From positions 62,001 to 126,000 of the forward strand of contig JAIXSO010000040.1 in NCBI GenBank assembly GCA_027484685.1: a DNA stretch of 64,000 bases, in the 5' to 3' direction. Under the pieces are notes generated by a model, which was given only the letters and a program-made list of their open reading frames with translations, was not told the DNA's origin and ran no database searches. Shown piece after piece: positions 4,884 to 49,097 of this stretch. Made by a program: the position numbers and the translations under genes. Source of the stretch: Bacteroidota bacterium (lineage in GTDB: Bacteria > Bacteroidota > Bacteroidia > UKL13-3). Positions within the stretch are counted from its first letter, which is position 1, and every line of letters starts with the position of its first letter.

Positions 4884-5690
4884 TTACTTGATTTTAGAAG
4901 TTAAAGGATTTCTAATCCCACTCATTTCGGCAATATCTACTTTAATACTTCCCACAAAAATATCGCTTTCAACACGAATAGGAATTTTGTTTTCATCATC
5001 AGTAACCCAAAGAGTTAATGCTTCATTATCTTTAAACACACGACCTTCAATTAATTGTGGTTTTACTTTAATGGTTTTAAAAGTACCAATATCAGTTTTT
5101 AAAACTTCGCGGCTCACAAATTTAAAACGCAATTCATAAGTTTTACCATCTAAATAAAATGGAACAGGAAATACATCGCCAGCTTTTGCACTGGTCATAT
5201 CCATACTACGTGCATAATAAATAGCGCTAATAATATCTTGAGTATTGTTCAAAATTTCAGTTTTACCACGTTTACCAGAAGCAGTTTTTGCTGCATGGTC
5301 AAAAATGATAAAATCGCTATCAGTATATTTACCCTCTTTAATTTTTTTAGTTGCTTTTAAAGGTACTAAAGCTTCTTGATCTATATAACTTTCAAACTCA
5401 TCTTTTACCTTAAACATCATATCAACCAAGCCAGCCGATTTACCGTTTACCTTAACGTAATAAGTGCTACGGTTATTTACCATTTGAGGTGCATTATCAA
5501 CACTAAAATATGCTTTACCACCATCAAGCGGACCATAATGAACTCTATAAGTAAGTTTTTCGCCAAAGGTAAAAGCATTATTTACTTTTTTCATTTTCGA
5601 CAATACATCATCCAATTCTGATTGTTGACTCTTTATCTGTGGCATAAAAGAACACAGAAACAACAATGAAATAAAACTAAAGCGTTTCAT
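4884..5690 (-). CDS. DUF3108 domain exported protein
   Basis: 268 residues with a signal peptide ending near KSQ at residue 21. The mature protein opens with FTFGEKLTYRVHYGPLDGGKA, the typical start of DUF3108 proteins, and runs through the beta-rich body (FKVKDEFESYIDQEALVPLKATKKIKEGKYT split over about residues 92-122; GKTYELRFKFVSREVLKTDIG; LTLWVTDDENKIPIRVES) to the end. The predicted location is periplasm or outer membrane. DUF3108 proteins are widespread and without an established biochemical role. The gene stands alone between two minus-strand terminators (4839-4863 downstream, 5722-5755 upstream), so it is probably monocistronic. Confidence 0.85.
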   Translation of the reverse strand: MKRFSFISLLFLCSFMPQIKSQQSELDDVLSKMKKVNNAFTFGEKLTYRVHYGPLDGGKAYFSVDNAPQMVNNRSTYYVKVNGKSAGLVDMMFKVKDEFESYIDQEALVPLKATKKIKEGKYTDSDFIIFDHAAKTASGKRGKTEILNNTQDIISAIYYARSMDMTSAKAGDVFPVPFYLDGKTYELRFKFVSREVLKTDIGTFKTIKVKPQLIEGRVFKDNEALTLWVTDDENKIPIRVESDIFVGSIKVDIAEMSGIRNPLTSKIK

Positions 5691-5803: not shown

Positions 5804-8800
5804 TTAATTTCTGATAATTTTTGTGGTAAATTGGTCTTTATCATTATATAATTTTAAGAAATAAATACCGCTACTATAATCCATTAAATCAATTTGATGA
5901 ATTTTTTGAACTTTAGCTCCAGATAAAATCTCTTTTCCACTCACATCATAAACAGTAAAATTTAAGTTTTGGTCAGCATCAATATTCACTATTCCGTTAT
6001 TTGGATTTGGATAAATATGAACTGAATTGATTAAATTTTGACGTTCATTGATAGAATTATATTTCAACTCAAAATCATCACTCATGGTACCACAGCCATT
6101 TGTACTATCAACCCTAACAGAATAAAAACCATATCCAGTAGTTACATAAGTATCAGAATTAGCACCACTAATAGGCGTTCCATTTAAGAACCATTGGTAG
6201 TAAACACCTTGAGTAACTTTTAATGTATTTCCAGCAGTTAAAGTAATAACAGGTTTTTTAGGACCAGGGTTAATGGTAATCACTTTTGAAATGGTATCGA
6301 AACAACCATTTGAAGCTAGCACACTTAATTGAACTCTGTAATCACCAGCTTGTGCGTATCGTTTGGTACTTGGGAATGTTGAAGTGGATGTAGTTGCATC
6401 ACCAAAATCCCATAATACACTAGTTATCCAACTTACTGTTCCACCTTGAGAGCTATTACTAAAGTCAAATCCGTTATCAATTAAGCATTGTGTAAATTTA
6501 TTTACATTAAAAATAGCTGCCGGCTTAATACTATTTACAATTACTTGACTAGCAACATTTTCCAAACATCCATTAGCACTACTTGCTTTTAATTTCACAT
6601 CAAAAATACCTACTTTTTTATATGCATGAATTGGATTGGCATTTGAAGAAGTTTCACTATCACCAAAATCCCATAAATAATTATTACCTAAACTTGTAGT
6701 GGTATTAATAAAACGAACAATTGTTGAATCGCAAGTAGCTAAAACTGTTTCAGTTGCAAAACTAACTAACGAATCTTTAAATTGTACAGCAATATCATCA
6801 AAGCCAGCAAAACAAGGACCTATAGGATCATCTGTAGTTATTGAAATTTGAATTGATTTAGCAGCTAAATCGGCAGCACTTGGCCTATACACAGTATTTA
6901 AAGCTGTAGGATCATCAAATGTACCTGTACCATTAGTAGTTACCCATAATATAGATGCGGCTCCACCACCAAAACTTCCGCTTAAATCTATACTATTTGC
7001 TGTAGCACAAAGTACTTGATCTGCACCAGCATTGGTGGTTACAGGTTGGTAAAATTTAACATTAACACTATCAACTACAGCAGGACAAGGACCAACGGGA
7101 TCGCTAGATGTTAAGATAAAGGTCATTTGTCCATTTGCTATATCAGCTGCAGTAGGATTATAAGTAAAAATTGAATCGTAAGAGTTAAACGCTGGAACAC
7201 TTGTATTAGTCCATTTTGCAAAAACTGCTACACTATTATAACTACCAAAAAAATTAACTGGACTATTGCCGCAAATATTTTGGTCAGGGCCAGCATTAAC
7301 CACAGCAACTGGACTTAATACAATAGTAACAGTATCACGTTTTAGAGGACATGGGCCAACAGGATCGTTGGTTGATAATACTAAATTTACAAAACCTCTA
7401 CTTTTATCAGAAGCTGAAGGAATATAAGTTGCCGTATCGTTAAGTCTATTTACAAATGAACCAATACCTGTTGTATTCCAAAAACAACTGCTAGCTGCTC
7501 CGCTTATTGTTCCTGTTAAGGCTATAGATGTAGCGTTAGCACAAACTGTTTGATCCATACCGGCAGTAACTTGTACAGGTTGATTGATGTTTAAAACTAA
7601 AGTATCTGTAACATTTGCACAAACATCGTTTGCATCAAAATTAGTATAAGCAATTTTTATACTTCCAGCCGCAATATCGGCTTCACTAGGGAAATAAGTA
7701 GGTGTTAAAGATGTGTTATTACTGAAGCCTCCATTACCAGTGGTAGACCAGAAACCGGTATTTCCTGTAACATTGGTTGTTACACCAAGTAAAATGTTAT
7801 CAGCAGCACAAATAGTTTTATCAACTCCAACATTTGCTGTTGCAAACGGTCGGTAAATTAATTCTAAAGTATCATTAACCGAAACACAAGGACCAGCAGG
7901 ATCATTGGTAATTAATATTAATTTAGTTAACCCACTCGCTTTATCGGCTACGCTTGGTGTATAAATAGCACCTAATAAATTAGAGTCATTAAATGTTCCT
8001 GTACCAGTAGTTTTCCAATAAGAACTTGTGGCTGAACCACCTATTAAACCAGAAAGTGTAACGGTACTTATATTTGAACAAACGGTTTGATCGGCACCTG
8101 CATCAACAAGTGGAATTTGATTTATAAAAATCTGAACTGAATCAACTGCCGCATCACAAGCACCAAAGGGATCGTTTGTTTTAAATGTTAAAACAACTTT
8201 TCCATTTGCATATTCAAGCGCATTTGGAGTGTAAGAAGTTGAGCTATTAAAACTTATAAAACTTGAGTTGGTAGATGAAGTCCAAGAACCAAAACTTGCT
8301 GCACCACCTGTAGTTGCAGCAACATTAATAGTTCCATTTGAACAAATAACTTGATCTAAACCAGCATTTACAGTAGCAGATTGATCAAAAGTAATTTTTA
8401 CAATGTCTTGTATTGGTCCGCAAGGACCAGCAGGGTCATTGGTTGTTAATACCAAGTTTACAAAACCAGTTGTTCTATCAGCTATGCTTGGAGTATAAAT
8501 AGCGTTTAAATTATTACTATTGTTAAATGTTCCAGAACCCAAAGTTGACCAAGTTCCCGTTGAAGCTGAGCCACCAACTGAACCTGATAAATTGATTGCA
8601 GTATTGCTTTCGCAAACGTTTATGTCGGTTCCTGCATCAACCAACGGCAATTGATTGAAGTTAATCAACACATTATCTGAAGCAAACGAACATGGAATGC
8701 TTGGATTAACAATACTGAATGTTAAAGTTACATTTCCATTTAAAATATCTGCATTACTTGGATAATAAGTTGGCGTTAATGAAGAATTATTATTAAAAAT

Positions 8801-11800
8801 ACCAGTTCCACTTGTGGTCCAAGTTACGTTACCCGAAATATTAGCCGAAGCCGATAAATTTATTGTATCGTTTGCACAAATAGTTCTGTCAATACCAGCA
8901 TTTGCAATGGTATTATAAGGCACAAATTGAATGTTAACCGTATCACTTTCGGCCGTGCAAGGGCCAGTTGGATTGTTGGTGGTATAAACTAATTTAACCA
9001 ATCCATTATTTTTATCGTTAGCCGAAGGTGTATAAATGGCATTTACTAAGTTGATATTATTAAACGTTCCAGTTCCAGTAGTGCTCCAAGTAGCACTCGA
9101 AGCTCCATTGCCAAAAGAACCTAACAATGAAACAGTAGTAGCATCGTTACATAAAATTTGGTCATTGCCAGCATTAACGGTAACAGCATTATTTATAAAA
9201 ATTTCTACTGAATCTTTAGCAGCACTACAAGGACCAAAAGGATCGTTAGTAGTAAATGTTAAAACAACTTTTCCATTTGCAATTTCGTTAGCAGTTGGAA
9301 TGTAGTTAGCAGAATTACTAAATGCAATAAAATTAGAGTTGGTTGAAGAAGTCCACGAACCAAAATTAGCAGAACCACCTAAGTTAGCAGTTACATTAAT
9401 AACTGAATTAGAACAAACAGTTTGATCTAAACCAGCATTAACAGTAGCGGCAGGGTTAAAGTTAATTCTTACAATATCTTGGGTAGCTGCACAAAATCCA
9501 CTAGGATCAATTGATGTAAGCACTAAATTAACAAAACCAGCATCTTTATCTGTTTGAGCAGGCGTATAGATAGCATTTAAATCATTTGCGTTGTTAAATG
9601 TTCCTGTACCTAATGTTGTCCAACTTCCAACAGATGCTGAACCTCCAATCAATCCATTTAAATTTACTTGATTATTATTGGCACAAATGGTTTGATCTGA
9701 ACCTGCATTAGCTATAGGCTGAGGATTAATATTAATAACCAAGTTATCAGAAGCAAATGAGCAAGGAATACTTGGATTATCTATAGTAAAAGTTAAAATA
9801 ATACTTCCACTATTTTTATCAGCATTACTTAAATAATAAGTAGGATTTAATGAAGAGCTATTGCTAAAAGCACCTGTGCCCGAAGTTGCCCAATTAATTA
9901 TTCCGGCAATGTTTGCAGAGGCTGAAAGTTTAACGCTGTCAACCGAACAAACCAATTGATCAGGTCCAGCATTTGCCACAGTTAAAAAAGGAAGTATTGT
10001 TATTTCAACAGTGTCTGATTTTGGTGTACATACACCACCTGGATTATTTGTTGTTAACACTAGTAAAACAGAACCATTACTTATATCATTATTGCTCGGG
10101 AAGTAATTGGTATTTAAATTATTGACATTATCAAAATTGCCTGTTCCTAAAGTAGACCAAATGGCACTTGTAGCCGTACCACCAATTAAACCCGACAGTG
10201 CTACATTCGGAGTTCTAACACATATTGTTTGATCTAAACCTGCATTTACTTGTGCTCCTTTATTTATTACAACTTCAACTGAATCTTTGGTAGCACTGCA
10301 AGGGCCAAAAGGATCATTAGTGGTAAATGTTAGCACAGCTCTTCCATTTGCAATTTCAGTTGCAGTTGGGAAATAAGTAAGGGGGTTAGTAAATGATATA
10401 AAATCTATGTTAGTGGAAGAGGTCCAAGAACCAATATTAGCAGAACCACCTAAAAGAGCGGTTAAATTAACTGATTGATTTTCACAAATATTTTGATTTA
10501 ATCCTGCGTCTACAATTGGAGCGGGATTAAACACTATTCTAACTGTATCAGCTGTTGCAACGCAAGGACCAGCAGGATCATTGGTATTTAATATCAAATC
10601 AACAAAACCCCTATTTTTATCTACGGTACTAGGTGTATAGATGGGATTTATAATATTTACATTATTAAACGTACCCGTTCCCAAAGTTGACCATTTACCA
10701 GAACTAGCTGTTCCTCCAACTGAACCTTTTAAACTTACAGTTGTGTTAGTTTCACAAACTGTTATGTCTGTACCAGCATTTACAGTAGGTAGTTGATTAA
10801 TTGTAACAATTAAATTATCAGAAGCAAAAGAGCAAGGAATTGTTGGATTTTCGATTGTGAAAGTTAAAATAACATTTCCATTTATTACATCTCCATTGCT
10901 TGGAAAATAAGTTGGTGTTAAAGAAGATGAGTTATCAAAAACACCTGTGCCAGAAGTTGTCCAGCTAACCGTTCCAACTATATTGGCAGAGGCAGATAAT
11001 TTAACGGTTTCAGTAGCGCAAATAATTCTATCTGTTCCAGCATCGGCCACTGTTGAAAACGGAAGTATTCTTAATTCTAAAGTATCAGTTATTGCTTCGC
11101 AATTTCCATCAGGATCGTTAGTAGTTAAAATTAATAAAATAGAACCTTTTTTTACATCATCATTACTAGGAAAATAAGTAGCATTTGGATTACGCAAATC
11201 ATCAAAAGTACCTGTCCCAGTGGTTGACCAATTGGCTTCGGTAGCTAATCCACCAATAAAACCAGATAAAATCACTTTTGAATTTTTCACACAGATACTT
11301 TGATCAACGCCAGCATTAACAATTGCCCCTTGTTCAATTAATACTTCTACAGAATCTTTTACTACACTGCAAGGGCCAAATGGATCATTAGTAGTATAAG
11401 TTAAAACCACTTTTCCATTTGCAATTTCACTTGACGTTGGAGCATAATCAATTGGATTACTAAAAGATATAAAACCAGGATTGGTAGATGAAGTCCAAGA
11501 ACCTATTGTAGCCGAACCTCCCAAACTCGCATTAATAGCTACTGTTTTATTTGAACAAATATTTTGATCAGGTCCTAAATCAACCCTTGCAGCCGGATTA
11601 AATACAATTCTTACAATATCTTCAACAGGTCCGCATGGCCCAGCAGGATCGTTGGTAGTTAATGTTAAATCAACAAAACCATTACTTTTATCTGCTACAC
11701 TTGGTGTGTAAATTGCACTTAAATCGCTTAAGTTATTAAATGTTCCAGAACCTTTTGTTAACCATGTTCCAAATGAAGCTGAACCTCCAATTGCACCAGC

Positions 11801-14800
11801 TAAATTAACTGTAGTATTGCTTTCGCAAACAACAATATCAGTTCCTGCATTTACCGTAGGTATTTGATTAAATACTACTACCATATTATCACTACCAAAT
11901 GAGCACCGAATACTAGGATTGATGATACTAAATGTTAAAGTTACATTTCCATTTAAAATATCTGCATTACTTGGATAATAAGTTGGCGTTAATGAAGAAT
12001 TATTATTAAAAATACCAGTTCCACTTGAAGTCCAAGTTACGTTACCCGAAATATTAGCCGAAGCCGATAAATTTACAGTATCGTTGGCACAAATAGTTCT
12101 ATCAATACCAGCATTAGCAATGGTATTATAAGGCACAAATTGAATGTTAAGCGTATCACTTTCGGCCGTGCAAGGGCCAGTTGGATCGTTGGTGGTAAAA
12201 ACCAACTTAACCAATCCATTGTTTTTATCATTTACCGAAGGTGTATAAATGGCATTTGCTAAGTTGATATTATTAAACGTTCCAGTTCCAGTAGTGCTCC
12301 AAGTAGCATTAGTAGCTCCATTGCCAAAAGAACCTAACAATGAAACGTTGGTAGCATCGTTACATAAAATTTGATCATTGCCAGCATTAACGGTAACAGC
12401 ATTATTTATAAAAATTTCTACTGAATCTTTAGCAGCACTACAAGGGCCAAAAGGATCGTTAGTAGTAAATGTTAAAACAACTTTTCCATTAGCAATTTCG
12501 TTAGCAGTTGGAATGTAGTTAGCAGAATTACTAAATGCAATAAAATTAGAGTTGGTTGAAGAAGTCCAAGAACCAAAATTAGCAGAACCACCTAAGTTAG
12601 CAGTTGCATTAATAACTGAATTAGAACAAACAGTTTGATCTAAACCAGCATTTACAGTAGCGGCAGGGTTAAAGTTAATTGTTACAATATCTTGATTAGG
12701 ACCACAAGGACCAGCAGGATCGTTGGTAGTTAAAACTAAATTTACAAAACCATTTAGTTTATCTGCTGTGCTTGGGAAATACAAAGCGTTTAGCGAATTG
12801 ATATTATTAAATGTTCCTGTTCCTTGAGTTGACCAAGTAGCTGAAGTAGCTGAACCGCCAATAGTACCATTTAAATTAATTGAAGCATCATTTTCGCAAA
12901 CAGTTTGATCTAAACCAGCATTAACACTTGGTAACTGATTGAAAGTAATCACCATATTATCACTTCCAAACGAGCAAGGAATACTAGGATTAATGATACT
13001 AAAAGTTAAAGTTACGTTTCCATTCAATACATCAGCATTACTTGGGAAATAAGTAGGAGTGAGAGATGAATTATTATTAAAAATACCCGTTCCACTTGAA
13101 GTCCAAGTAACATTACCCGAAATATTAGCCGAAGCCGATAAATTTACGGTATCGTTGACACAAATAGTTCTGTCGATACCAGCATTAGCAATGGTATTAT
13201 AAGGTACAAACTGAATATTAACGGTATCACTTTCGGCTGTACAAGGGCCAGTTGGATCGTTGGTGGTGTAAACCAACTTAACCAATCCATTGTTTTTATC
13301 GTTTACCGAAGGTGTATAAATGGCATTTGCTAGGTTTACATTATTAAACGTTCCAGTTCCAGTAGTGCTCCAAGTAGCGCTCGAAGCTCCGCTTCCAAAA
13401 GAACCTAATAATGAAACAGTTGTAGCATCGTTACATAAAATTTGATCATTACCAGCACTAACAGTAACAGCATTATTTATAACTATCTCAACAGAGTCTT
13501 TAGCAGCACTGCATGGACCAAAAGGATCGTTGGTAGTAAATGTTAAAACAACTTTACCATTTGCAATTTCGTCATTAGTTGGACTATAAGTTGTTGGGTT
13601 ATTAAATGAAATATATGCAGGATTGCTAGATGAAGTCCATGAACCAAAATTTGCCGAACCGCCTAAAACTGCACTAATATTTATTGCTTTATTAGAACAA
13701 ATATTTTGATTAATACCTGCATCTACTGTTGCAACAGGGTTAAAGTTAATTCTTACAATATCATTGGTGGCTCCACATGGACCAACAGGATCGTTGGTAG
13801 TTAAAACTAAATTCACAAAACCAGCAGCTTTATCGGCTACGCTTGGAAAATATAAAGCATTTAATGAATTAACATTATCAAATGTCCCTGTTCCTTGCGT
13901 TGACCAAGTTCCTGTCGATGCAGTTCCACTTACTGAACCTGATAAACTTACAGAAAGGTCATTTTCACAAACTGTTTGATCTAGTCCAGCATTTGCTGTT
14001 GGAAGCTGATTAAAAGTTACTAATAAATTGTCAGAAGCAAACGAACAAGGAATACTTGGATTGATAATACTAAAAGTTAAAATTACACTTCCATTTAACA
14101 CATCAGCATTACTTGGATAATAAGTTGGAGTAAGTGACGAATTATTATTAAACAACCCAGTTCCATTTGAAGTCCAAGTTACATTTCCCGTAATATTAGC
14201 AGATGCAGCTAAAATTACACTATCATTGGTACATCTTTGTTGGTCGGGACCAGCGTTAGCCACTGTGGTGTAAGGTACAAATTGAATATACACAGTATCT
14301 GTTTCCGCATTACATGGACCAGCAGGGTCGTTGGTAGTATATACCAATTTAACCAATCCACTGTTTTTATCATTAACCGAAGGTGTATAAATGGCGTTTG
14401 CTAGGTTTACATTGTTAAATGAACCAGTTCCAGTTGTACTCCAAGTTGCACTTGACGCACCGCTTCCAAAAGAACCTAATAATGAAACAGTTGTAGCATC
14501 GTTACATAATATTTGGTCATTACCAGCATTTACAACAACAGCTTGATTAATAGTTACTTCTAACGAATCTTTAACCGCGCTACATGGACCAAATGGATCG
14601 TTGGTGGTAAAAGTTAATACTACTTTACCATTAGCAATATCAGTTGCAGTTGGTAAATAACTTACTGGATTACTGAAAGATATATAACTAGGATTGCTTG
14701 ATGAAGTCCATGAACCAAAAGTAGCTGAACCTCCCAATGTGGCAGTTGCATTAATTGCTGTATTTGAACAAATTAACTGGTCAATTCCAGCATTGGTAGT

Positions 14801-16267
14801 TGCCGCCTGATTGAAGCTAATTTTCACCATATCTTGTGTAGCTCCGCATGGACCAATAGGATCGTTAGTGGTTAAAAACAAGTTTACAAAACCAACGGCT
14901 TTATCGGCCACACTTGGTGTATAAACTGCATTTAAAGAATTTATATTGTTAAATGTTCCGGTTCCTTGAGTAGACCAAGTACCACTACTAGCAGAACCCG
15001 ACAATGAACCATTTAATCCAACACTGTTACTGCTTTCACAAACTGTAAAATCTACTCCTGCATCTACTCCTGGCAATTGATTTATGTTTACTAATACATT
15101 ATCAGAAGAATTATCACATACAAAAGACGGATTAGAAGTTGTAAATGTAAAAGTAACAGACCCATTTTGAATATCGGCTGTACTTGGAAAATAGTTTGGT
15201 GTTAAAATAGCGTTGTTATCAAAAAAGCCAGTTCCTGAACTTGTCCAAATTTTACTTCCACCAGTAGCATTAGTGGTGGCACTTAACGAAACATTATTTC
15301 CTGCACAAATAGTTTGGTCAATTCCTGCATTAGAAACTGCCAATGGATTAAAATTAATTCTAACAGTATCGCGGTTTAAAGTACAAGGACCTGCAGGATC
15401 GTTGGTTGTTAAAACTAATTTTACAAAACCAGCACTTATATCATTTGCCGAAGGCGTATAAACTGCATTAAGTAAACTATTATTATTAAAAGAACCAGAG
15501 CCTAAAGTTGACCAAGTTGCAGACGTAGCTGTTCCACTAATACTGCCCGATAAATTAACACTTGTTGTATTTACACATAGATTTTGAGTAGTTCCCGCGC
15601 TAACAATTGGAGCTTGCAAAAACGAAACTGTCATAGAGTCTTTAGCTGCAACACAAGGCCCCGCAGGGTCGTTAGTTGTTAAAATTAATATAACTGACCC
15701 ATTTAACACATCGGCTGCGCTTGGTGTGTATTCAGCGTTTAAATTAGATGTATTATTAAAAGTACCTGTTCCTGTAGAAGACCAATTAGCAAAAGGCGCT
15801 ACTAGGCCAACCGAACCAGCTAAAGTCACGGTACTATTACCACATAATAATTGGTCAGGACCAGCACTAGCACTAGGTATTGGATTAATATTCAAGTTAT
15901 TGCCATTATCAGTTCCTACAATTGAAGGGTTATCTGCCACAACCCTAATACGGTAAATATAACTTGAAGTTGAACTTAGTGGAAAAACCACTGAAATATT
16001 ACCACTTGTAGTTGATACCACCGAACCAATATTAATTGGCGCGGCAAAACTCCCTGTTTCATCACTTAATTGTGCAGTAAAAGTATTTCCTACTGAAAAT
16101 GAACCTGTTACAGAATAACTTACAGTAGTTGCATCGCCAGCACAAAACGAAGTTCCTGCAACGCCAATGGTAGCAATAGTTTGCGCGCCAACTCTTGATG
16201 TTGCAAAAAATATCAAGGTTAAAAATAGGACATTTAAGCCTTTCCTGATACTGTTATTTTTTGTCAT
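5804..16267 (-). CDS. Giant secreted modular protein with 34 repeat modules, PKD domains and T9SS type A sorting domain
   Basis: 3487 residues in one uninterrupted frame. The signal peptide (about residues 1-29) ends SRVGAQ. After a short beta-rich domain come 34 modules of 88-90 residues. Each starts with a variant of VNAGxDQxxC, has a TWSTxGTGTFNN core, a TPSxxD segment and ends near TNDPxGPC, giving two cysteines per module. From module 3 on, the modules follow a fixed order of four types repeated eight times (357 residues, 1071 bp). Two PKD-like domains (YLWDFGDSETSS; VLWDFGDATTST), an Ig-like segment and a C-terminal sorting domain (VHIYPNPNNG to FTTKIIRN) follow. The architecture predicts type IX secretion and attachment at the cell surface, most likely as an adhesin or surface stalk. 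Function is inference; secretion route is well supported. A terminator follows and no other gene is co-transcribed. Confidence 0.92.
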   Translation of the reverse strand: MTKNNSIRKGLNVLFLTLIFFATSRVGAQTIATIGVAGTSFCAGDATTVSYSVTGSFSVGNTFTAQLSDETGSFAAPINIGSVVSTTSGNISVVFPLSSTSSYIYRIRVVADNPSIVGTDNGNNLNINPIPSASAGPDQLLCGNSTVTLAGSVGLVAPFANWSSTGTGTFNNTSNLNAEYTPSAADVLNGSVILILTTNDPAGPCVAAKDSMTVSFLQAPIVSAGTTQNLCVNTTSVNLSGSISGTATSATWSTLGSGSFNNNSLLNAVYTPSANDISAGFVKLVLTTNDPAGPCTLNRDTVRINFNPLAVSNAGIDQTICAGNNVSLSATTNATGGSKIWTSSGTGFFDNNAILTPNYFPSTADIQNGSVTFTFTTSNPSFVCDNSSDNVLVNINQLPGVDAGVDFTVCESSNSVGLNGSLSGSASSGTWSTQGTGTFNNINSLNAVYTPSVADKAVGFVNLFLTTNDPIGPCGATQDMVKISFNQAATTNAGIDQLICSNTAINATATLGGSATFGSWTSSSNPSYISFSNPVSYLPTATDIANGKVVLTFTTNDPFGPCSAVKDSLEVTINQAVVVNAGNDQILCNDATTVSLLGSFGSGASSATWSTTGTGSFNNVNLANAIYTPSVNDKNSGLVKLVYTTNDPAGPCNAETDTVYIQFVPYTTVANAGPDQQRCTNDSVILAASANITGNVTWTSNGTGLFNNNSSLTPTYYPSNADVLNGSVILTFSIINPSIPCSFASDNLLVTFNQLPTANAGLDQTVCENDLSVSLSGSVSGTASTGTWSTQGTGTFDNVNSLNALYFPSVADKAAGFVNLVLTTNDPVGPCGATNDIVRINFNPVATVDAGINQNICSNKAINISAVLGGSANFGSWTSSSNPAYISFNNPTTYSPTNDEIANGKVVLTFTTNDPFGPCSAAKDSVEIVINNAVTVSAGNDQILCNDATTVSLLGSFGSGASSATWSTTGTGTFNNVNLANAIYTPSVNDKNNGLVKLVYTTNDPTGPCTAESDTVNIQFVPYNTIANAGIDRTICVNDTVNLSASANISGNVTWTSSGTGIFNNNSSLTPTYFPSNADVLNGNVTLTFSIINPSIPCSFGSDNMVITFNQLPSVNAGLDQTVCENDASINLNGTIGGSATSATWSTQGTGTFNNINSLNALYFPSTADKLNGFVNLVLTTNDPAGPCGPNQDIVTINFNPAATVNAGLDQTVCSNSVINATANLGGSANFGSWTSSTNSNFIAFSNSANYIPTANEIANGKVVLTFTTNDPFGPCSAAKDSVEIFINNAVTVNAGNDQILCNDATNVSLLGSFGNGATNATWSTTGTGTFNNINLANAIYTPSVNDKNNGLVKLVFTTNDPTGPCTAESDTLNIQFVPYNTIANAGIDRTICANDTVNLSASANISGNVTWTSSGTGIFNNNSSLTPTYYPSNADILNGNVTLTFSIINPSIRCSFGSDNMVVVFNQIPTVNAGTDIVVCESNTTVNLAGAIGGSASFGTWLTKGSGTFNNLSDLSAIYTPSVADKSNGFVDLTLTTNDPAGPCGPVEDIVRIVFNPAARVDLGPDQNICSNKTVAINASLGGSATIGSWTSSTNPGFISFSNPIDYAPTSSEIANGKVVLTYTTNDPFGPCSVVKDSVEVLIEQGAIVNAGVDQSICVKNSKVILSGFIGGLATEANWSTTGTGTFDDLRNPNATYFPSNDDVKKGSILLILTTNDPDGNCEAITDTLELRILPFSTVADAGTDRIICATETVKLSASANIVGTVSWTTSGTGVFDNSSSLTPTYFPSNGDVINGNVILTFTIENPTIPCSFASDNLIVTINQLPTVNAGTDITVCETNTTVSLKGSVGGTASSGKWSTLGTGTFNNVNIINPIYTPSTVDKNRGFVDLILNTNDPAGPCVATADTVRIVFNPAPIVDAGLNQNICENQSVNLTALLGGSANIGSWTSSTNIDFISFTNPLTYFPTATEIANGRAVLTFTTNDPFGPCSATKDSVEVVINKGAQVNAGLDQTICVRTPNVALSGLIGGTATSAIWSTLGTGNFDNVNNLNTNYFPSNNDISNGSVLLVLTTNNPGGVCTPKSDTVEITILPFLTVANAGPDQLVCSVDSVKLSASANIAGIINWATSGTGAFSNSSSLNPTYYLSNADKNSGSIILTFTIDNPSIPCSFASDNLVININPQPIANAGSDQTICANNNQVNLNGLIGGSASVGSWTTLGTGTFNNANDLNAIYTPAQTDKDAGFVNLVLTSIDPSGFCAATQDIVRINFNPAATVNAGLDQTVCSNSVINVTANLGGSANFGSWTSSTNSNFIAFSNSANYIPTANEIANGKVVLTFTTNDPFGPCSAAKDSVEIFINNAVTVNAGNDQILCNDATTVSLLGSFGNGASSATWSTTGTGTFNNINLVNAIYTPSANDKNNGLVKLVYTTNNPTGPCTAESDTVNIQFVPYNTIANAGIDRTICANDTINLSASANISGNVTWTTSGTGIFNNNSSLTPTYYPSNADILNGNVTLTFSIVNPSIPCSFASDNVLINFNQLPLVDAGTDINVCESNTAINLSGSVGGSASTGTWSTLGSGTFNNSNNLNAIYTPSIADRTTGFVNLVLTTNDPAGPCGPIQDIVKITFDQSATVNAGLDQVICSNGTINVAATTGGAASFGSWTSSTNSSFISFNSSTSYTPNALEYANGKVVLTFKTNDPFGACDAAVDSVQIFINQIPLVDAGADQTVCSNISTVTLSGLIGGSATSSYWKTTGTGTFNDSNLLGAIYTPSVADKASGLTKLILITNDPAGPCVSVNDTLELIYRPFATANVGVDKTICAADNILLGVTTNVTGNTGFWSTTGNGGFSNNTSLTPTYFPSEADIAAGSIKIAYTNFDANDVCANVTDTLVLNINQPVQVTAGMDQTVCANATSIALTGTISGAASSCFWNTTGIGSFVNRLNDTATYIPSASDKSRGFVNLVLSTNDPVGPCPLKRDTVTIVLSPVAVVNAGPDQNICGNSPVNFFGSYNSVAVFAKWTNTSVPAFNSYDSIFTYNPTAADIANGQMTFILTSSDPVGPCPAVVDSVNVKFYQPVTTNAGADQVLCATANSIDLSGSFGGGAASILWVTTNGTGTFDDPTALNTVYRPSAADLAAKSIQISITTDDPIGPCFAGFDDIAVQFKDSLVSFATETVLATCDSTIVRFINTTTSLGNNYLWDFGDSETSSNANPIHAYKKVGIFDVKLKASSANGCLENVASQVIVNSIKPAAIFNVNKFTQCLIDNGFDFSNSSQGGTVSWITSVLWDFGDATTSTSTFPSTKRYAQAGDYRVQLSVLASNGCFDTISKVITINPGPKKPVITLTAGNTLKVTQGVYYQWFLNGTPISGANSDTYVTTGYGFYSVRVDSTNGCGTMSDDFELKYNSINERQNLINSVHIYPNPNNGIVNIDADQNLNFTVYDVSGKEILSGAKVQKIHQIDLMDYSSGIYFLKLYNDKDQFTTKIIRN
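8710..9470 (-). repeat. Nearly identical internal duplication, copy 1 (modules 25-27)
   Basis: This part of the giant gene matches 11923-12683 almost base for base, including a long identical run around the AATVNAGLDQTVC module. The offset is 3213 bp, exactly three four-module units (3 x 1071). Neighbouring modules are clearly more diverged, so this is a recent duplication or gene conversion. Confidence 0.8.
11923..12683 (-). repeat. Nearly identical internal duplication, copy 2 (modules 13-15)
   Basis: Partner of 8710-9470, at an offset of 3213 bp. At protein level the type-A modules of the two copies differ at a single residue. Confidence 0.8.
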
Positions 16268-16628
16268 AATTTATTAAAATAAGAGTGAGAAATTTTCTTT
16301 TTAATTGTGCAGAAAAATACAATTAAAACTACTTAATATGTTAAAAAGTTGTGGGCTGCTCAAAATTTTACACAAATCGCTTCTCTATTATGCTAATAGC
16401 GGTTAAATGAATAGAGAAAAGTTAGATATTTTTAAAAAAATTTGCTTTTTAAGCATAGTTATCCACAATTTAAAAGTCATTTTTGGGTAATATATTTACG
16501 AAAATAATTAATTAATTGTTAGGTGTATTTTTTCAAAAATTATTAAAAAACTAAAATTAACAAAAAAATCAAAATTGATAGTTTGGGTTTGCGTTTTTAT
16601 TCGCAAATTCGCAGCTTACTTTTCAATC
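16268..16628. other. Intergenic stretch between divergent genes, no gene seen
   Basis: 361 bp of AT-rich spacer holding the promoters of the giant gene (minus) and purL (plus). A TATATTTA at 16492-16499 could be the purL -7 box, without a clear partner. A single TTATCCACA at 16459-16467 matches the DnaA-box consensus, but no second box or AT-rich unwinding array accompanies it. Confidence 0.4.
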
Positions 16629-18896
16629 ATGAATCAATCTATTCCATCGGGCAATTTAGCCACACTTGAACAAGCACAACAATTAGGTCTTAGACCAGAA
16701 GAATTTGAAAAAATTAAGGAAATTTTAGGCCGCACTCCCACTTTTACCGAAATGAGTATTTTCTCAGTAATGTGGAGCGAGCATTGTTCATATAAAAATT
16801 CAATTGTTTGGTTAAAAACTTTGCCTAAAAAAGGCGAAAAAATGTTGGCCGAAGCAGGTGAAGAAAATGCAGGTTTGATTGATATTGGCGATGGATTAGC
16901 TTGTTGTTTTAAAATAGAAAGTCACAACCACCCAAGTGCCATTGAACCATATCAAGGTGCTGCAACGGGTGTGGGAGGAATTAACCGTGATATTTTTTCA
17001 ATGGGCGCTCGCCCAATTGCGCAACTAAACTCATTGCGTTTTGGAAATATAGAAAACGAAAGAACAAAATGGTTGGTTCGTGGTGTGGTTAAAGGAATTG
17101 GAAATTATGGAAATGCTTTTGGCATTCCAACAGTTGGTGGCGAAGTTTATTTTGACGATTGCTATCAAATCAACCCATTGGTAAATGCTATGAGCGTTGG
17201 AATTGCTAAAGTAGGAAAAACGGTTTCAGCTATTGCTGAAGGTGTTGGCAATCCTGTTTATATTTTTGGTTCAGCTACTGGAAAAGATGGAATTCATGGA
17301 GCTGCATTTGCAAGTAAAGACATTACGGAAGATTCAGCAAAAGATTTGCCTTCTGTTCAAGTAGGCGATCCATTTTGGGAGAAATTAATTTTGGAAGCCA
17401 GTATGGAATTGCTTGAAACCGATGCCATTGTTGGAATGCAAGATATGGGTGCTGCGGGTATTACTTGCTCAACTAGCGAAATGAGTGCAAAAAGCGGAAC
17501 AGGCATGAAAGTGTGGCTAGATAAAGTTCCTATGCGCCAAGAAGGCATGAAAGATTGGGAAATTCTTTTATCAGAAAGCCAAGAACGTATGTTGGTGATT
17601 GTAAAAAAAGGAATGGAAGCCCAAGTTGAAAAAGTATTAGAAAAATGGGATTTAACTTATAATATTATAGGAGAAGTAACTGATTCTGGAAGAGTTCAAT
17701 ATTATATGAATGATGAATTGCGTGCTGATATTCCAGGAGAAAGTTTGGTTTTAGGTGGTGGGGCTCCAGTTTATCACCGCGAATACACCGAGCCTAAATA
17801 TTTTGCAGAGATTGCAAAGTTTGATTTAAATAATATTGCTGATTGTACCTTAGAAAACAATTCAACATCCAACATTCAACATTCAGCATTAGAAATTGCT
17901 AAATTCCTAGCTGCTCACCCAAATATTGCATCAAAAAGATGGGTGTATAACCAATATGATAGCATGGTAGGAACTATTAACCAAACTACCAATGCACCAA
18001 GTGATGCCTCGGTGGTAAAAGTTAAAGGAACCGATAAATCAATTGCTATGACTGTAGATTGTAACAGCCGTTTTGTTTGGGCTGATCCATTTGTAGGTGG
18101 ACAAATTGCGGTAGCAGAAGCAGCACGTAATTTGGTTTGCGCTGGTGCTGAACCTGCGGCCATTACCAATTGCTTAAACTTTGGAAATCCATACAACCCT
18201 GAAGTGTATTACCAATTTGTGTATGCCATAAAAGGCATGGGCGAAGCTTGTAAAAAGTTTGATACACCAGTAACAGGTGGAAACGTAAGTTTTTATAACC
18301 AAAGCAGCGATAACGATGCTGTTTTCCCAACTCCAACTATTGGAATGGTTGGTTTAATTGGAAACAATAAAGCACATATGACCATGGATTTTAAAAATGC
18401 AGGTGATGTAATTTACATGCTTGGCAATAGCAAAAACGATATTGGTTCATCGCATTATTTGGCGCACTACCATAAAGTACAATACTCGCCAGCACCATAC
18501 TTTAACCTAGATGAAGAGCACCAATTACATAAAGTTTTATTAGGTTTAATTAACGGTAATCATATTGAATCGGCACACGATATTAGCGAAGGTGGGTTAT
18601 TTATTACTCTACTTGAAAGTGCTATGAACAGAAATCTTTCATTCAACATTCAAAATCCAACATCCAACATTCGTTCAGATGCTTTTCTATTTGGCGAAGC
18701 ACAAGGACGAGTAGTAATTTCAATAAAAGCTCATAATTGTGCTCAAGTGGAAAGTTATTTAAACGGATTAAACATGCCATTTGAAAAACTTGGAACTGTT
18801 ACCGAAAACACTATTCAAGTGAATGGTATTGATTTTGGCACAACTGCTGATTTTGCTAATATTTACAATAATTCGTTAGAAAGTAAATTAGCGTAG
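16629..18896 (+). CDS. purL: Phosphoribosylformylglycinamidine synthase, small-type PurL
   Basis: 755 residues from the ATG at 16629. The frame is open to 16575, but the extra residues are not PurL-like, while MNQSIPSGNLATLEQAQQLGL is. It catalyses the ATP-dependent amidation of FGAR to FGAM in purine synthesis. Diagnostic segments are SEHCSYKNSI near residue 40, ESHNHPSAIEPYQGAATGVGG near 98, DMGAAGITCSTSEMSAKSG near 275, GGNVSFYNQS near 550 and SAHDISEGGLF near 655. Length matches the small PurL that works with PurQ and PurS; neither lies in this window. Two Asn/Ser/Ile-rich loops (about residues 412-421 and 671-682) are encoded by a tandem CAACATTC/CAACATCC-type repeat and look like recent micro-insertions in variable positions. 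Confidence 0.95.
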   Translation: MNQSIPSGNLATLEQAQQLGLRPEEFEKIKEILGRTPTFTEMSIFSVMWSEHCSYKNSIVWLKTLPKKGEKMLAEAGEENAGLIDIGDGLACCFKIESHNHPSAIEPYQGAATGVGGINRDIFSMGARPIAQLNSLRFGNIENERTKWLVRGVVKGIGNYGNAFGIPTVGGEVYFDDCYQINPLVNAMSVGIAKVGKTVSAIAEGVGNPVYIFGSATGKDGIHGAAFASKDITEDSAKDLPSVQVGDPFWEKLILEASMELLETDAIVGMQDMGAAGITCSTSEMSAKSGTGMKVWLDKVPMRQEGMKDWEILLSESQERMLVIVKKGMEAQVEKVLEKWDLTYNIIGEVTDSGRVQYYMNDELRADIPGESLVLGGGAPVYHREYTEPKYFAEIAKFDLNNIADCTLENNSTSNIQHSALEIAKFLAAHPNIASKRWVYNQYDSMVGTINQTTNAPSDASVVKVKGTDKSIAMTVDCNSRFVWADPFVGGQIAVAEAARNLVCAGAEPAAITNCLNFGNPYNPEVYYQFVYAIKGMGEACKKFDTPVTGGNVSFYNQSSDNDAVFPTPTIGMVGLIGNNKAHMTMDFKNAGDVIYMLGNSKNDIGSSHYLAHYHKVQYSPAPYFNLDEEHQLHKVLLGLINGNHIESAHDISEGGLFITLLESAMNRNLSFNIQNPTSNIRSDAFLFGEAQGRVVISIKAHNCAQVESYLNGLNMPFEKLGTVTENTIQVNGIDFGTTADFANIYNNSLESKLA
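17861..17890 (+). repeat. CAACATCC/CAACATTC micro-repeat inside purL, copy 1
   Basis: About 30 bp of imperfect tandem 8-9-mers (TTCAACATCCAACATTCAAC and onward) that keeps the purL frame and encodes an NSTSNIQHS loop. The same motif recurs at 18640-18673 in the same gene. Confidence 0.6.
18640..18673 (+). repeat. CAACATCC/CAACATTC micro-repeat inside purL, copy 2
   Basis: Second in-frame block of the same 8-9-mer family, encoding FNIQNPTSNIR between the conserved NRNLSF and DAFLFGEAQGR segments, where PurL proteins are variable in length. Confidence 0.6.
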
Positions 18897-44049: not shown

Positions 44050-46260
44050 CTATTTTTGAATGATTAGTTTTTGACTTTCTGACCCATCATTACCTCTAAT
44101 TTCAATAATATAAACTCCATTGCTTATATCAGATACATTTAATTGGTGGTTGTTATTATTTAGTGTTTCCGATTTAACCAAAGCTCCAACTAAATTATAA
44201 ATATTTACTGTTACAGGATTTGTGCTTTGATTTTTGTATTTTAAATTTACAATGTCGGATGCAGGATTTGGATATAGGATTGTTCGTTTATCTACCTCCA
44301 ATTCTTTTGTTCCTAACCGCGAATACATTATTTCTATTGTGCTATCACTAATGCAACCAAAACTATTATAGGTTTTTAAATTTACCAAATATTTTCCGCT
44401 TTTTGCAAACAAGTGAATTGGCATTTTTTGAGTTGAAAAACTGCTATCGCCAAAACTCCATTGATAGCTTGTTAAGCTAGTGTCGGTTGGTGTAAAATAA
44501 AAAGTATCACTCTTTAATATATAGGTAAAACTTGCTCTTGGCAGTTCGTTCACGTTCACTTTTATGTTTAACGAATTTGCACTGCAACCTTCGTTGCCTA
44601 AAAAAGGCCATAACACAAACTCTTGTGTGGCTGAATTTTTGTTTTGTAAATATAAAGTTTGATTCAACACCAAACCGCTATCTGCTTTGGCTCCTGTAAT
44701 TTGGTTGTTTTGAATTGGACTCCAATAAAATATGGCTTGCGGAGTTGATTGAATGCTATCGCTTAAAGGTATTCCACTGCATGTATTAAATAAAGTATCA
44801 TTTAAGTTCAAGGTATTAGAAATAGTGCTAACTGAAATTATAATTGATTTTGGTTCGCTTCCACATTGGGCATCGGCTAATACATGTTTTACCAAATATT
44901 CTTGGCTACCAGCTGTTGTTCCGCTGTTGGTAAGTGTTTGAAAAATGCCCGTTTTAGATTGTAACATAGTTGTAGCTCCACTAATATTACCTGTTTTTGC
45001 GCCTAATGTCCATATAAAAAATCCAGGGTAATCAGTGGTTGGAATAAGATTGGTATTGCTGCCATTACAAATTAATTTACTGGTTGGCCCAACAATTTTG
45101 GGTGTGGGAGCTACATAAAGCCTCAATGGTAAACTATCGCTAATACAACTACCTGTAACGGTAGTTAGCTTAATCAAATAATTAACATAACCATATGAAC
45201 TAGTACTGTTGTTAATTAACGATTGACGCATCACAAAACCAGTTCCACTTTGCGCACCTTGCACTCCTCGCGATTGAATAGTAGTCCAATTCATATTGCT
45301 GTAAATGGAATTTTGAAAATACACTTGTTCGTTCACAAGGCCGCTACAAATGGTATCTCCTTCAAAACTGCTAATGGTTGGAAGTGCCCTCACTGTAATG
45401 GTAAAATTTACGGGATTGCTTTTACAAGTGCCTGCAGTAGAAGTTGCTTCAACCGCATAAACAGCATTGCCATTGGTGGTATTACTTGCATTAAATAGTT
45501 TAAGTAACATAGTTGTTCCACTTGAATCATTTCCACCAGTAATTCCAGCACCCATTGATTGTTTTATCCAACTAAAGGTAGAAGGTACACTTGCAGTTAA
45601 TGGAATACTTAATACTGAGCCACTACAAACACTATGTGAAGAAATATTGGTAACTTGTGGTTTTGGCAAAACACTATAAGTAATATCCTTTACATTACCT
45701 ACACAGCCGCCATCTATAGCCGTTGGTGTTATACGATAAACAATGCCACCAGAAGAATTGTTACTTGAATTATTTAATACCTGATTTATTTGAGAACCTG
45801 TTCCAGCAGAAGCACCTGTTGTACCATTTATAGTTGTTATAGGCATAAAAGTAAAGGTGCTTGGTTTGTTTGCTGTTAGCGTTAATTGCGTGTTTGCACC
45901 ATTACACATGCTATAATTAGTTAAATTGGTTACAACTGGTTTTGAAACATAACGTATCTTTAACCAATTGCTTGTATCGCTATAATCACTGCTTAACCTT
46001 CGGTAATACATTACAGAGTCTGATTGTGTTACTGTAATGAATGAAGTGTACTCGAATATTACTCCTGGGGTTTGGGTAGTATCGAAAGCAGTTTGCCAAC
46101 GAACTGAAACAGCATTAGGACCATAAATATTAAATTCCATACTTGGGTCACAAACTACATTGTTTGTTAGTGAAGATTGAATAATGGTATTACGTGTAGC
46201 AAAAGCAGTGGAGCAAAATATAAATATTGTAACTAGCTGTATAATTATCTTTTTGTTCAT
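44050..46260 (-). CDS. PKD-type repeat protein with T9SS type A sorting domain
   Basis: 736 residues from the ATG ending at 46260 (MNKKIIIQLVTIFIFCSTAFA). The body has about six Ig/PKD-like repeats of 85-95 residues with motifs such as CNGANTQLTLTANKPSTF and TNGNAVYAVEATSTAGTC, two or more cysteines each. A PKD domain follows (YQWSFGDSSFSTQKMP, near residue 610), then the C-terminal sorting domain from RTILYPNPASD to SQKLIIQK. It should be exported by Sec, then carried across the outer membrane by the type IX system. It is smaller than, but built like, the giant protein at 5.8-16.3 kb. A surface adhesin role is likely but inferred. Confidence 0.88.
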   Translation of the reverse strand: MNKKIIIQLVTIFIFCSTAFATRNTIIQSSLTNNVVCDPSMEFNIYGPNAVSVRWQTAFDTTQTPGVIFEYTSFITVTQSDSVMYYRRLSSDYSDTSNWLKIRYVSKPVVTNLTNYSMCNGANTQLTLTANKPSTFTFMPITTINGTTGASAGTGSQINQVLNNSSNNSSGGIVYRITPTAIDGGCVGNVKDITYSVLPKPQVTNISSHSVCSGSVLSIPLTASVPSTFSWIKQSMGAGITGGNDSSGTTMLLKLFNASNTTNGNAVYAVEATSTAGTCKSNPVNFTITVRALPTISSFEGDTICSGLVNEQVYFQNSIYSNMNWTTIQSRGVQGAQSGTGFVMRQSLINNSTSSYGYVNYLIKLTTVTGSCISDSLPLRLYVAPTPKIVGPTSKLICNGSNTNLIPTTDYPGFFIWTLGAKTGNISGATTMLQSKTGIFQTLTNSGTTAGSQEYLVKHVLADAQCGSEPKSIIISVSTISNTLNLNDTLFNTCSGIPLSDSIQSTPQAIFYWSPIQNNQITGAKADSGLVLNQTLYLQNKNSATQEFVLWPFLGNEGCSANSLNIKVNVNELPRASFTYILKSDTFYFTPTDTSLTSYQWSFGDSSFSTQKMPIHLFAKSGKYLVNLKTYNSFGCISDSTIEIMYSRLGTKELEVDKRTILYPNPASDIVNLKYKNQSTNPVTVNIYNLVGALVKSETLNNNNHQLNVSDISNGVYIIEIRGNDGSESQKLIIQK

Positions 46261-46618
46261 ATCAATTAAAATTAAAAGCAATCAACTAAAAAATTTCCAA
46301 ACATCCATATTATAAAATAAATTACGGTGAAATTTTACTTAAAACACCAAACAATCTAACGCCAACACAGGTTTACTGTTCATTATCTGAACTGTGTCAA
46401 GCATTTCGTGATTGATTTAAATGATTTATTTACCAAAAAGTGCGGGCAAAAATAAGAACTGAAAACTTCAACTAAAAACTAAAAAACAAATGCTCCATAA
46501 GAGCGAAAGTATGGTAACAAAACAAACAAACATAACCTAAAGCCCCATAGGAGCGACACTCAATAATTGTTGGTGACACTTCGCAAAAAACAAACAAAGG
46601 CAAAATTGCAACATTATT
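46261..46618. other. Intergenic stretch holding repeat B1, no gene seen
   Basis: 358 bp between the T9SS protein and the DUF4431-like gene. The left 200 bp are featureless AT-rich DNA; the right part is the family B repeat at 46488-46603. Confidence 0.5.
46488..46603 (+). repeat. Family B repeat, copy B1
   Basis: Shares GAGCGAAAGTATGGTAACAA, AACCTAAAGCCCCATAGGAGC and a TTCGC tail with copies B2 and B3. Each family member has two short hairpins with a TA-containing loop (CTCC-ATA-GGAG and CCCC-ATA-GGGG types); here both are slightly decayed. Confidence 0.75.
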
Positions 46619-47041
46619 TCACTTTACATCAAAAATAATATCAGTTTGATGATGACCACTTATAGGTATAGAAAAAACACCATTAACTTTAATCTTTTTC
46701 CCTATTTTATTTTTCAAATACGTTAGTTTAGAACCAACCAATTGAAATGTAAAAATATCTTGAATAGTATCTTTGGTTTTAGTTTCATTATCCAAATTTA
46801 TAACAGTTATAGCCTTATCTAATTTCAATTTATAAATTATTTCTTGAGTGTCCATGCTAGGAGTTTCTCCATAATTTGGAGGTCCAAACACGGTGTCTGA
46901 TTCTAAAATACCTTCAATAGCAGAAATATTTGTTTCAGTGTAATATAATGAAGTTGCAGTTTGATTTGATTTTTCATCATTACAAGAACATATTAGCATC
47001 AATAAAAAAACAAAATGGTAAATATGGTTTTTCATTTTCAT
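46619..47041 (-). CDS. Lipoprotein with DUF4431-like domain
   Basis: 140 residues. The signal ends LMLICSC (Cys20). The mature part contains ISAIEGILESDTVFGPPNYG, the short ETPSMDTQEIIYKLKLDKAI strand and a C-terminal GKKIKVNGVFSIPISGHHQT/DIIFDV. The GPPNYGExP start and the terminal GxxxxxxTGHHxTDV-like ending are the recognisable DUF4431 pattern. These small exported domains have no established function. Gene is followed by the family B repeat. Confidence 0.75.
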   Translation of the reverse strand: MKMKNHIYHFVFLLMLICSCNDEKSNQTATSLYYTETNISAIEGILESDTVFGPPNYGETPSMDTQEIIYKLKLDKAITVINLDNETKTKDTIQDIFTFQLVGSKLTYLKNKIGKKIKVNGVFSIPISGHHQTDIIFDVK

Positions 47042-47135
47042 TGAATTTAAAACTTAGTAATTTTACCTCAATAATTTATATCAAATATACTAATTTGGGT
47101 TATTACATAAACAATAACAGAAATTGTTTGAAAAT

Positions 47136-47303
47136 AATCCCGTAGGGATGTGCTTATGGTAGCAAAGAATTAACCCACCAATTAAGCCCTGTAAGGCCGG
47201 CCTTATTTTTTTAATTATACAAATAAGCTCGTCCCGATGGAACTTAACAAAGCTAACTATTATTTACTACCATAAGTTCGCCTCTACGAGGCTAATAATA
47301 AAA
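47136..47303 (+). repeat. Family C element, copy C1
   Basis: About 168 bp closely matching C2 and C3. It has four hairpins (TCCCGTAGGGA; AAGCCCTGTAAGGCcGG; GTCCCGATGGaAC; GCCTCTACGAGGC) and subterminal inverted arms CTTATGGTAG (47153-47162) / CTACCATAAG (47277-47286). C1 is the most decayed copy. Confidence 0.8.
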
Positions 47304-47324
47304 TTTACCTTTATGTACTACTTT

Positions 47325-47357
47325 TTAAAAATAAATGCCCGTTCCATATTGGTTTCG
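47325..47357 (-). pseudogene. 3'-end remnant of a gene like 50457-50801
   Basis: The minus strand encodes NQYGTGIYF plus stop, the same ending as the 114-residue protein at 50457-50801 (NQYGTGIYFYF). In both places a family C element lies just downstream. Here the coding match ends at the A3 palindrome. Confidence 0.55.
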
Positions 47358-47359
47358 CC

Positions 47360-47383
47360 ATTGCAGGCGTCCTCGCCTGCAAT
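47360..47383. repeat. Family A palindrome, copy A3
   Basis: Perfect 10-bp arms ATTGCAGGCG / CGCCTGCAAT with TCCT loop; cleanest copy in the window. Confidence 0.8.
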
Positions 47384-47419
47384 AAATTGGGATCATTAAC
47401 TCCAAATGTTCCCAAAAAC

Positions 47420-47530
47420 AAATGCTCCATAGGAGCGAAAGTATGGTAACAAAACATATAAATCTCACCAACCTAAAGCCCCATAGGGGCGATACTTCGC
47501 TAAACAACAACGTGGGCAAATGCTGTAAAG
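47420..47530 (+). repeat. Family B repeat, copy B2
   Basis: Perfect CTCCATAGGAG and CCCCATAGGGG hairpins separated by GTATGGTAACAAAAC and a spacer, then TTCGCTAAA and GGGCAAATGCTGTAAAG. It is directly followed by D1. Confidence 0.8.
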
Positions 47531-47537
47531 AAGTTTA

Positions 47538-47680
47538 ATTAAACGTCTCTATCTTGCCCCAAGAAAACCATTATATTTCCCAACAACCATGAAGAGACGT
47601 TGCACGCAACGTCTTTTTAGATCAAGACGTAACATGTTACGTCTCTACAATTTCCCGCACCAAATAATACTACTTTCATA
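47538..47680. repeat. Family D element, copy D1 (two tandem palindromes)
   Basis: Two hairpins with 9-bp arms: AGACGTTGC/GCAACGTCT (47595-47614, followed by TTTTT) and AGACGTAAC/GTTACGTCT (47625-47644). The flanks (CTTGCCCC, AAGAAAACCATT, ACAATTTCC, CACCAAATAA) are shared with D2. Confidence 0.8.
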
Positions 47681-47685
47681 ACACC

Positions 47686-47762
47686 ATTGCAGCTTGTCCT
47701 CGTCTGCAATTATTAGCTTTATTCAAATTTATTGATTTTGGCGAGGACGGTAACATCGGATC
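47686..47762. repeat. Family A composite, copy A4
   Basis: Long form of family A: the palindrome (here decayed) followed by TATTAGCTTTATTCAAATTT, TATTGATTTTG and a right-hand GGCGAGGACGGTAACATCGG. The right-hand GGCGAGGAC is complementary to the palindrome's GTCCTCGCC. It ends 10 bp before the next gene's stop. Confidence 0.75.
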
Positions 47763-47771
47763 AAAAGAAAA

Positions 47772-48059
47772 TCAATCAATATGTGTTTTACCTTGCCCGA
47801 AAAATGGATGAATTCCCTTAATTCCGTCTTTACATAACTCACAATAAAATCCTGATTCCATACCTGATTTATTGTCTAAGTTTTTATGGATTTTAACGAA
47901 ATCAGGGAAATTAAATCTTTTCTTTATTTTATCTAAGTCTAAAACGCAATCATAATATACCCAATCACGACAATTTTCGCCCCAAGCCTCTCCACGAAAT
48001 GTTTCTTGAATTCCTCTTGTTTTTAGTTCGTCATCTAGTCTTAACAAATGTTCACACAT
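47772..48059 (-). CDS. Small cysteine-containing protein of unknown function
   Basis: 95 residues, cytoplasmic, no signal. It has MCEHLLRLDDELKTRGIQET, a tryptophan-rich GEAWGENCRDWVYYDCVLDL and a C-terminal GFYCELCKDGIKGIHPFFG, with CELC a possible metal site. I recognise similar short proteins in other bacteria but know no assigned function. It lies at the left edge of a run of small minus-strand genes. Confidence 0.7.
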   Translation of the reverse strand: MCEHLLRLDDELKTRGIQETFRGEAWGENCRDWVYYDCVLDLDKIKKRFNFPDFVKIHKNLDNKSGMESGFYCELCKDGIKGIHPFFGQGKTHID

Positions 48060-48159
48060 AATTTTTCTTATGGTTTGTTTTTTGTAACAATTGGCGCGAT
48101 TTTTTATTAGCTATTTCAAATTTATTTTGGTAAAGAAGCAAACAACAGCAGCAATAAAC

Positions 48160-48552: not shown

Positions 48553-48557
48553 ATAAT

Positions 48558-48905: not shown

Positions 48906-49083
48906 TTCTTTTATATTTATGGGTAAATATTAAAATTAATAGTCCCGTTATAAGTGCTAAAAAATCAAACTCTTTTACAATAATAGAATTAATAATACCT
49001 ATAACAATAAATACTAATCCTAAACTATATAGGTATTTCTTATCAACCGTATTTAAAAAATTTCTAATTTTCATTGTTTTCAA
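48898..49083 (-). CDS. Very small two-helix membrane protein
   Basis: 61 residues with two hydrophobic helices (YLYSLGLVFIVIGIINSIIV and FDFLALITGLLILIFT). Overlap of 8 nt with the next gene supports it as real. Function unknown. Confidence 0.5.
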   Translation of the reverse strand: MKTMKIRNFLNTVDKKYLYSLGLVFIVIGIINSIIVKEFDFLALITGLLILIFTHKYKRNG

Positions 49084-49097
49084 TTATTGACTTTATG

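Follow-up and report, generated by a model that had tools for sequence, protein, structure and literature searches.

A predicted surface-stalk protein with 34 immunoglobulin-like modules in a fixed alternating order from a lake-type Bacteroidota bacterium

The giant gene and its locus

The stretch of DNA analysed here (the window, 64,000 nucleotides) comes from a lake-type Bacteroidota bacterium and contains a gene for a predicted surface-stalk protein of 3,487 residues, built from 34 immunoglobulin-like beads whose order alternates strictly. The gene lies at 5804..16267 on the minus strand, and its assignment to the giant surface proteins exported by the type IX secretion system (T9SS) is based on the open reading frame and domain matches. 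A putative N-terminal signal peptide (aa about 1-28; 16184..16267, minus strand) was read from the sequence, and the orthologues keep ...AQTI after it. The next domain (aa 28-130; 15878..16186, minus strand) is the predicted distal end of the protein. It was modelled by AF2 as an Ig-like beta-sandwich of ~103 residues (pLDDT 90, pTM 0.82) and has relatives in 70 of 118 class genomes. It has no Pfam match here, and the fold search returned generic Ig folds alone with weak E-values; therefore no binding function can be read from this domain. The array of 34 modules occupies aa 131-3164 (6776..15877, minus strand) and is followed by two PKD domains (6269..6712, minus strand; PF18911, E 3.4e-21; collagenase PKD matches) and a T9SS type A C-terminal sorting domain, Por_Secre_tail (5813..6016, minus strand; PF18962, E 3.2e-13; TIGR04183, E 2.3e-13). 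The sorting domain covers aa 3418-3486, the very C-terminal end, as in T9SS type A cargo. SprA of the T9SS translocon scored over the cut-off in all ten genus genomes, so export by this system is plausible. A promoter scan upstream of the giant gene gave a number of sites not above chance.

On the C-terminal side of the gene lies a DUF3108 gene (4884..5690, minus strand), which adjoins the giant gene in most species and is located elsewhere in G003 and G006. On the N-terminal side is the FGAM synthase (PurL-type) gene (16575..18896, plus strand), which has 84-96% identity across the genus and adjoins the giant gene in every related species with that side readable. G005 (L234:12052-15217) has no giant gene, and its DUF3108 and FGAM synthase genes are adjacent; this locus is an empty site or a clean loss.

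Other features were noted in the window. A second T9SS cargo of 743 aa, with PKD_5, PKD_4 and a sorting tail, is encoded at 44050-46281. The region 46600-54000 has low GC (down to 0.265) and many short minus-strand ORFs. The product of 59791-63003 (1070 aa) carries an N6 adenine DNA methylase domain and may belong to a restriction system or another kind of defence.

Module types and repeat order in the window

The array contains exactly 34 two-cysteine modules of 88-91 aa each, with the two cysteines 62-64 residues apart. Self-comparison of the protein gave an identity of 0.53 at a lag of 357 aa, against about 0.10 off-period, and the DNA gave 0.62 at a lag of 1071 bp, with further peaks at multiples of these lags. 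A first-pass annotation had described 34 modules that follow the order C-D-A-B eight times from the third module on, and had expected self-comparison to reveal a 1071-bp period; our data agree with both. Its unit of 357 aa or 1071 bp was also correct, but the breakdown into 89+90+88+90 residues is off by one, the lengths being 88 for C (89 in C1 and C8), 90 for D, 88 for A and mostly 91 for B.

Modules 1 and 2 (15341..15877) are not in the tetrad register, and the other 32 modules fill it. All on the minus strand, the units are unit 1 (C1-D1-A1-B1; 14267..15340), unit 2 (13196..14266), unit 3 (12125..13195), unit 4 with the variant B4 (11054..12124), unit 5 with the variant B5 (9983..11053), unit 6 (8912..9982), unit 7 with a D-like B7 (7844..8911) and unit 8 (6773..7843). 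Unit 8 is strongly diverged, with 43-54% identity to its best matches, which are sometimes of another type. The window array is made of seven clear units and this diverged one.

Mean identity was 0.57-0.62 between modules of the same type and 0.34-0.50 between modules of different types; for adjacent modules it was 0.36 and for modules four apart 0.64. In the module tree of the window, C formed one clade (100/98) and A formed one clade (93/88), and D and B were intermixed. Type labels needed 4 changes on this tree and unit-number labels needed 27. Modules therefore cluster by type and not by position, as had been proposed, but of the four clades expected for the four types those of C and A were recovered and those of D and B were not. 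B1, B2, B3 and B6 are mutually 84-93% identical, B4 and B5 are a separate pair, and B7 and B8 are D-like. A single B clade was not rejected (p-AU 0.39). B is a loose fourth type and not a clean one, with four near-identical members and a remainder that is mostly D-like. The idea that each type has its own signature likewise held in part, as the B signature fits only 4 of the 8 B modules.

Between modules of the same type, dS was mostly near or above 0.7 (around 1 for most duplications) and dN/dS was often about 0.05-0.3; for B1 and B2, dN was 0.05 and dS 0.76. The mostly high dS and low dN/dS show that the repeats are old and that the types have been kept by purifying selection. The array is no young expansion, and most of its duplications are old. 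A 770-bp tract at 11925..12694 (minus strand), comprising most of A3-B3-C4, has 96% identity to its partner at 8712..9481 (minus strand), comprising most of A6-B6-C7. The tracts are three units apart and their flanking modules are not so alike, which looks like in-register gene conversion.

An assembly artefact or a repeat chimera could also produce such an array, and the contigs of two other species do break within it. However, the longest exact internal repeat found was 97 bp, so short-read collapse is unlikely and the assembly is believable. The gene is also a single open frame of 3487 codons on a contig of 152 kb, and the same design was found in seven complete arrays. An artefact is hardly credible.

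Length change, alternation and exchange among related species

The complete arrays have 34 (window), 28 (G009), 18 (G001), 16 (G004) and 10 modules (G003, G006 and G008). The counts are all even, and are not all congruent modulo 4. Types were assigned by profile, independent of position, and odd positions were scored from the third on; by this measure D-class modules stood at even positions and C or A at odd positions, with no violation at 119 sites in the seven complete orthologues. The orders among orthologues include CDAD, CDCD (as CD-CD-CD) and ADAD. G001 and G004 differ by one missing D-A pair, a two-module block, which is the smallest step observed. In the genus-wide module tree, an A clade (99) and a C clade (100) both span all species, and in the window species the units stand in C-D-A-D/B register, in line with the earlier suggestion that blocks were duplicated after the types had diverged. 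First modules cluster across species, module 1 of the window among them, and likewise last modules, including that of unit 8; interior modules cluster mostly by lineage. The ends of the array are therefore fixed and the interior dynamic.

The conserved quantum is the dimodule, an odd/even pair, and the tetramodule a higher-order repeat that was made regular in the window species. Changes in stalk length seem to come in steps of two beads, with neighbours staying unlike. The closest genomes available for comparison belong to other species and are mostly metagenome assemblies, with one genome per species, and the length variation is that seen between species. The even counts could reflect few independent events.

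The tetramodule had been put forward as the structural or functional unit itself, possibly a fibre turn. On such a view, in which the unit might also be a binding site, arrays would be kept in multiples of four. The eightfold C-D-A-B register of the window species is consistent with this, the rest of the genus shows C-D-A-D more often than any other order, and a Flavobacteriales contig (L100:1-10300) carries an unrelated array of 34 modules from this family that has its own period of four, with near-identical module sets 01/05/09, 02/06/10, 03/07 and 04/08. However, orthologues with 10, 16, 18 and 28 modules, the CDCD and ADAD stretches and the two-module difference between G001 and G004 speak against it, and other arrays of the module family had their best lags at 1, 2, 3, 4, 5 or 7. 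Our data did not bear out this proposal, and we consider it improbable.

In a class sample (L209-L228) best lags were 1 to 5 with a small lag-2 contrast, and a general law of alternation for the module family was rejected. Loci fetched by the tetramodule query may be biased towards alternation. Strong alternation has arisen separately in L098, in L071, and in L108 and its relatives. A single ancient dimodule was ruled out, as odd and even types are array-specific among unrelated proteins. Control HYR arrays from the same class (L193, L198-L202), with giants up to 10,249 aa, showed little two-module alternation. Alternation is lineage-specific.

The order might record duplication history only, if an early two-module duplication was preserved by recombination between like modules without selection on order. 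In domain repeats, several domains are commonly duplicated together, most often two (PMC1553488), and block sizes vary freely among arrays of the module family. On the other side, the types are under purifying selection at saturated silent sites, and the order is free of violations although unlike modules share about 60% DNA identity. History alone is possible, though less likely than not. The type of duplication event is ordinary; the strict alternation and the two-level layout are unusual.

The alternation itself may have been selected, if look-alike adjacent Ig domains misfold and unlike neighbours, together with alike non-adjacent modules, permit length change by recombination. In the window, adjacent identity (0.36, with 0.52 as the highest value) was lower than in all 2000 of 2000 order shuffles, and non-adjacent pairs reached 0.99. 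The same trend was found in all seven orthologues and was weaker in the short arrays. Adjacent domains in large multidomain proteins usually have <50% identity, a rule that Periscope proteins break (PMC8201768), and tandem identical titin Ig domains misfold via domain swapping (PMC4862688). However, block duplication alone also yields low neighbour identity. Neighbours are 70-80% identical in other arrays of the module family, which argues against a general requirement, and because those arrays tolerate such neighbours, dissimilarity can be at most one factor. Selection against misfolding is somewhat doubtful as the explanation. It is also rather doubtful that the two-level repeat is an adaptive solution, in which spaced like modules keep DNA homology, neighbours below about 50% identity fold correctly and the steps preserve alternation. 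With same-type modules at up to 99% identity and neighbours at ~36%, the layout could reconcile recombination with folding.

The giant gene and its neighbour differ in divergence. Between the window and sister species, FGAM synthase has 95% aa identity and dS of 0.38-0.53, and the ends of the giant protein have 51-55% aa identity and dS of 1.2-1.4. The reverse was found between G003 and G006, where dS was 0.22-0.28 at the giant-gene ends and 0.55 in the FGAM gene. For G001 and G004, the N-terminal end of the giant gene had a dS of 0.04, its C-terminal end one of 0.53 and the FGAM gene one of 0.33. Module-by-module identities between species form a mosaic. Allele swapping by recombination is common for exposed surface proteins. 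The simplest reading is that the giant gene, too, appears to have been exchanged between lineages by recombination, as divergent alleles or parts thereof. The sister-species tree is weakly supported. Fast divergence could explain part of the pattern, but would not account for a dS as unusually low as that in the segments of G003/G006 and G001/G004.

Fold, distant relatives and a model for the stalk

The tetramodule of unit 3 was chosen for an AlphaFold model (104 sequences), which gave Ig/PKD-like sandwiches with pLDDT 94.9 and pTM 0.71, so that the structure prediction called for by the first-pass annotation returned a confident fold. The best fold matches included fragments of GhpA (Foldseek E 6e-16, VIA Z 11-13), together with cadherin and Ig chains. 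The broader family profile A2 matched the GhpA sequence with E 8e-75 over 17 stretches (best stretch 2.8e-12). The genus-level profile A1 had no match in the PDB, GhpA included, and phmmer with the full giant protein and with both ends did not match GhpA. A scan of genome contigs with the single protein gave no matches, and profile A1 was required. No module passed the curated cut-offs of Pfam or NCBIfam, the best single-member matches being K319L-like_PKD (5e-5), PKD_4 (1.7e-4) and Ig_7 (0.014). DUF7137 was over its cut-off only when summed across the 34 modules, and none of the stretches was significant by itself. The Pfam matches that stand alone are the C-terminal PKD and tail domains, and NCBIfam has no module-level model. 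In a profile search the module family was found in 108 of 119 sampled Bacteroidia genomes (~90%). This widespread family, related to the Aureispira grappling-hook domains, is thus without a curated module-level model.

GhpA of Aureispira sp. CCB-QB1 (PDB 9flp-9fly, 9g8b; Lien et al. 2024) is likewise a giant surface protein with Ig-like stalk modules in a T9SS-bearing bacteroidote, and is described as T9SS-secreted (PMC11205867). From profile and fold, the modules are distant relatives of the solved GhpA stalk domain, a shared building block and not a shared function. GhpA has 5,898 residues and assembles as a heptamer (PMC13319060) with neck and hook, whereas the protein here, known from sequence and model, has a regular two-level module order. 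A grappling-hook-type appendage, with several chains joined in an oligomeric filament for catching other cells, would by analogy fit the GhpA matches and the fact that both are T9SS-type giants. However, the genus-level profile and single sequence fail to match GhpA, the protein is shorter (3487 vs 5898 aa), and cadherin and Ig chains match equally well, so that the fold alone says little. We consider such an appendage quite improbable.

Our preferred model, which we consider probable, is a T9SS-exported stalk of two alternating module classes that changes length in even steps by recombination, is exchanged as alleles and has an adhesive or shielding function. The T9SS would export the protein to the outer surface, where the C-terminal sorting tail and the two PKD domains would lie near the cell. 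The Ig/PKD-like modules, of which there are 34 and which probably hold one disulfide each, would form a long semi-rigid rod with the Ig-like N-terminal domain at its far end. Homologous recombination between same-class modules may lead to gain or loss of even numbers of modules, mostly of C-D-A-D tetrads in the window species. Each lineage would keep the ends of the array unchanged but duplicate its interior and make it in part more uniform. Lineages would swap divergent alleles of the gene next to flanking genes that are conserved, and the gene can be absent. Most likely it serves as a stalk of variable length for adhesion or shielding. The sequences show the domain order, the type clades, the alternation with its even counts, the two-module step between close species, the in-register tract, the fixed ends, the allele mosaics and the absence from G005. 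The display on the surface, the adhesive or shielding role, the recombination mechanism, the disulfides and the outward N-terminus are the parts of the model that we infer.

Similar designs are known in other systems. The gliding adhesin SprB carries a type B tail and differs in this from the giant protein with its type A sorting tail. SprB and RemA resemble it as very large T9SS-exported surface proteins (PMC11205867). The A-band super-repeats of titin and the seven-domain blocks of nebulin (PMC10665226; PMC1553488) also consist of unlike domains of one fold that are kept in a fixed order and block-duplicated, but those are eukaryotic muscle proteins, and the block length here is not conserved across the genus. 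Periscope proteins (SasG, Rib, Sgo_0707; PMC8201768) are surface stalks of tandem folded domains in variable number, and the 10 to 34 modules across species match this, with the stalk shape taken from the model. The high identity between adjacent repeats of Periscope proteins was not found in the window array. Their neighbours are near-identical, whereas here neighbours are 36% identical and near-identical modules are four or more apart; anchoring here is by the T9SS, and length variation is seen between species only. Periscope proteins raise the question of length against misfolding because their near-identical neighbours break the usual rule. The orthologues of 10, 16, 18, 28 and 34 modules provide a natural series for studying how a bacterial stalk changes length without misfolding.
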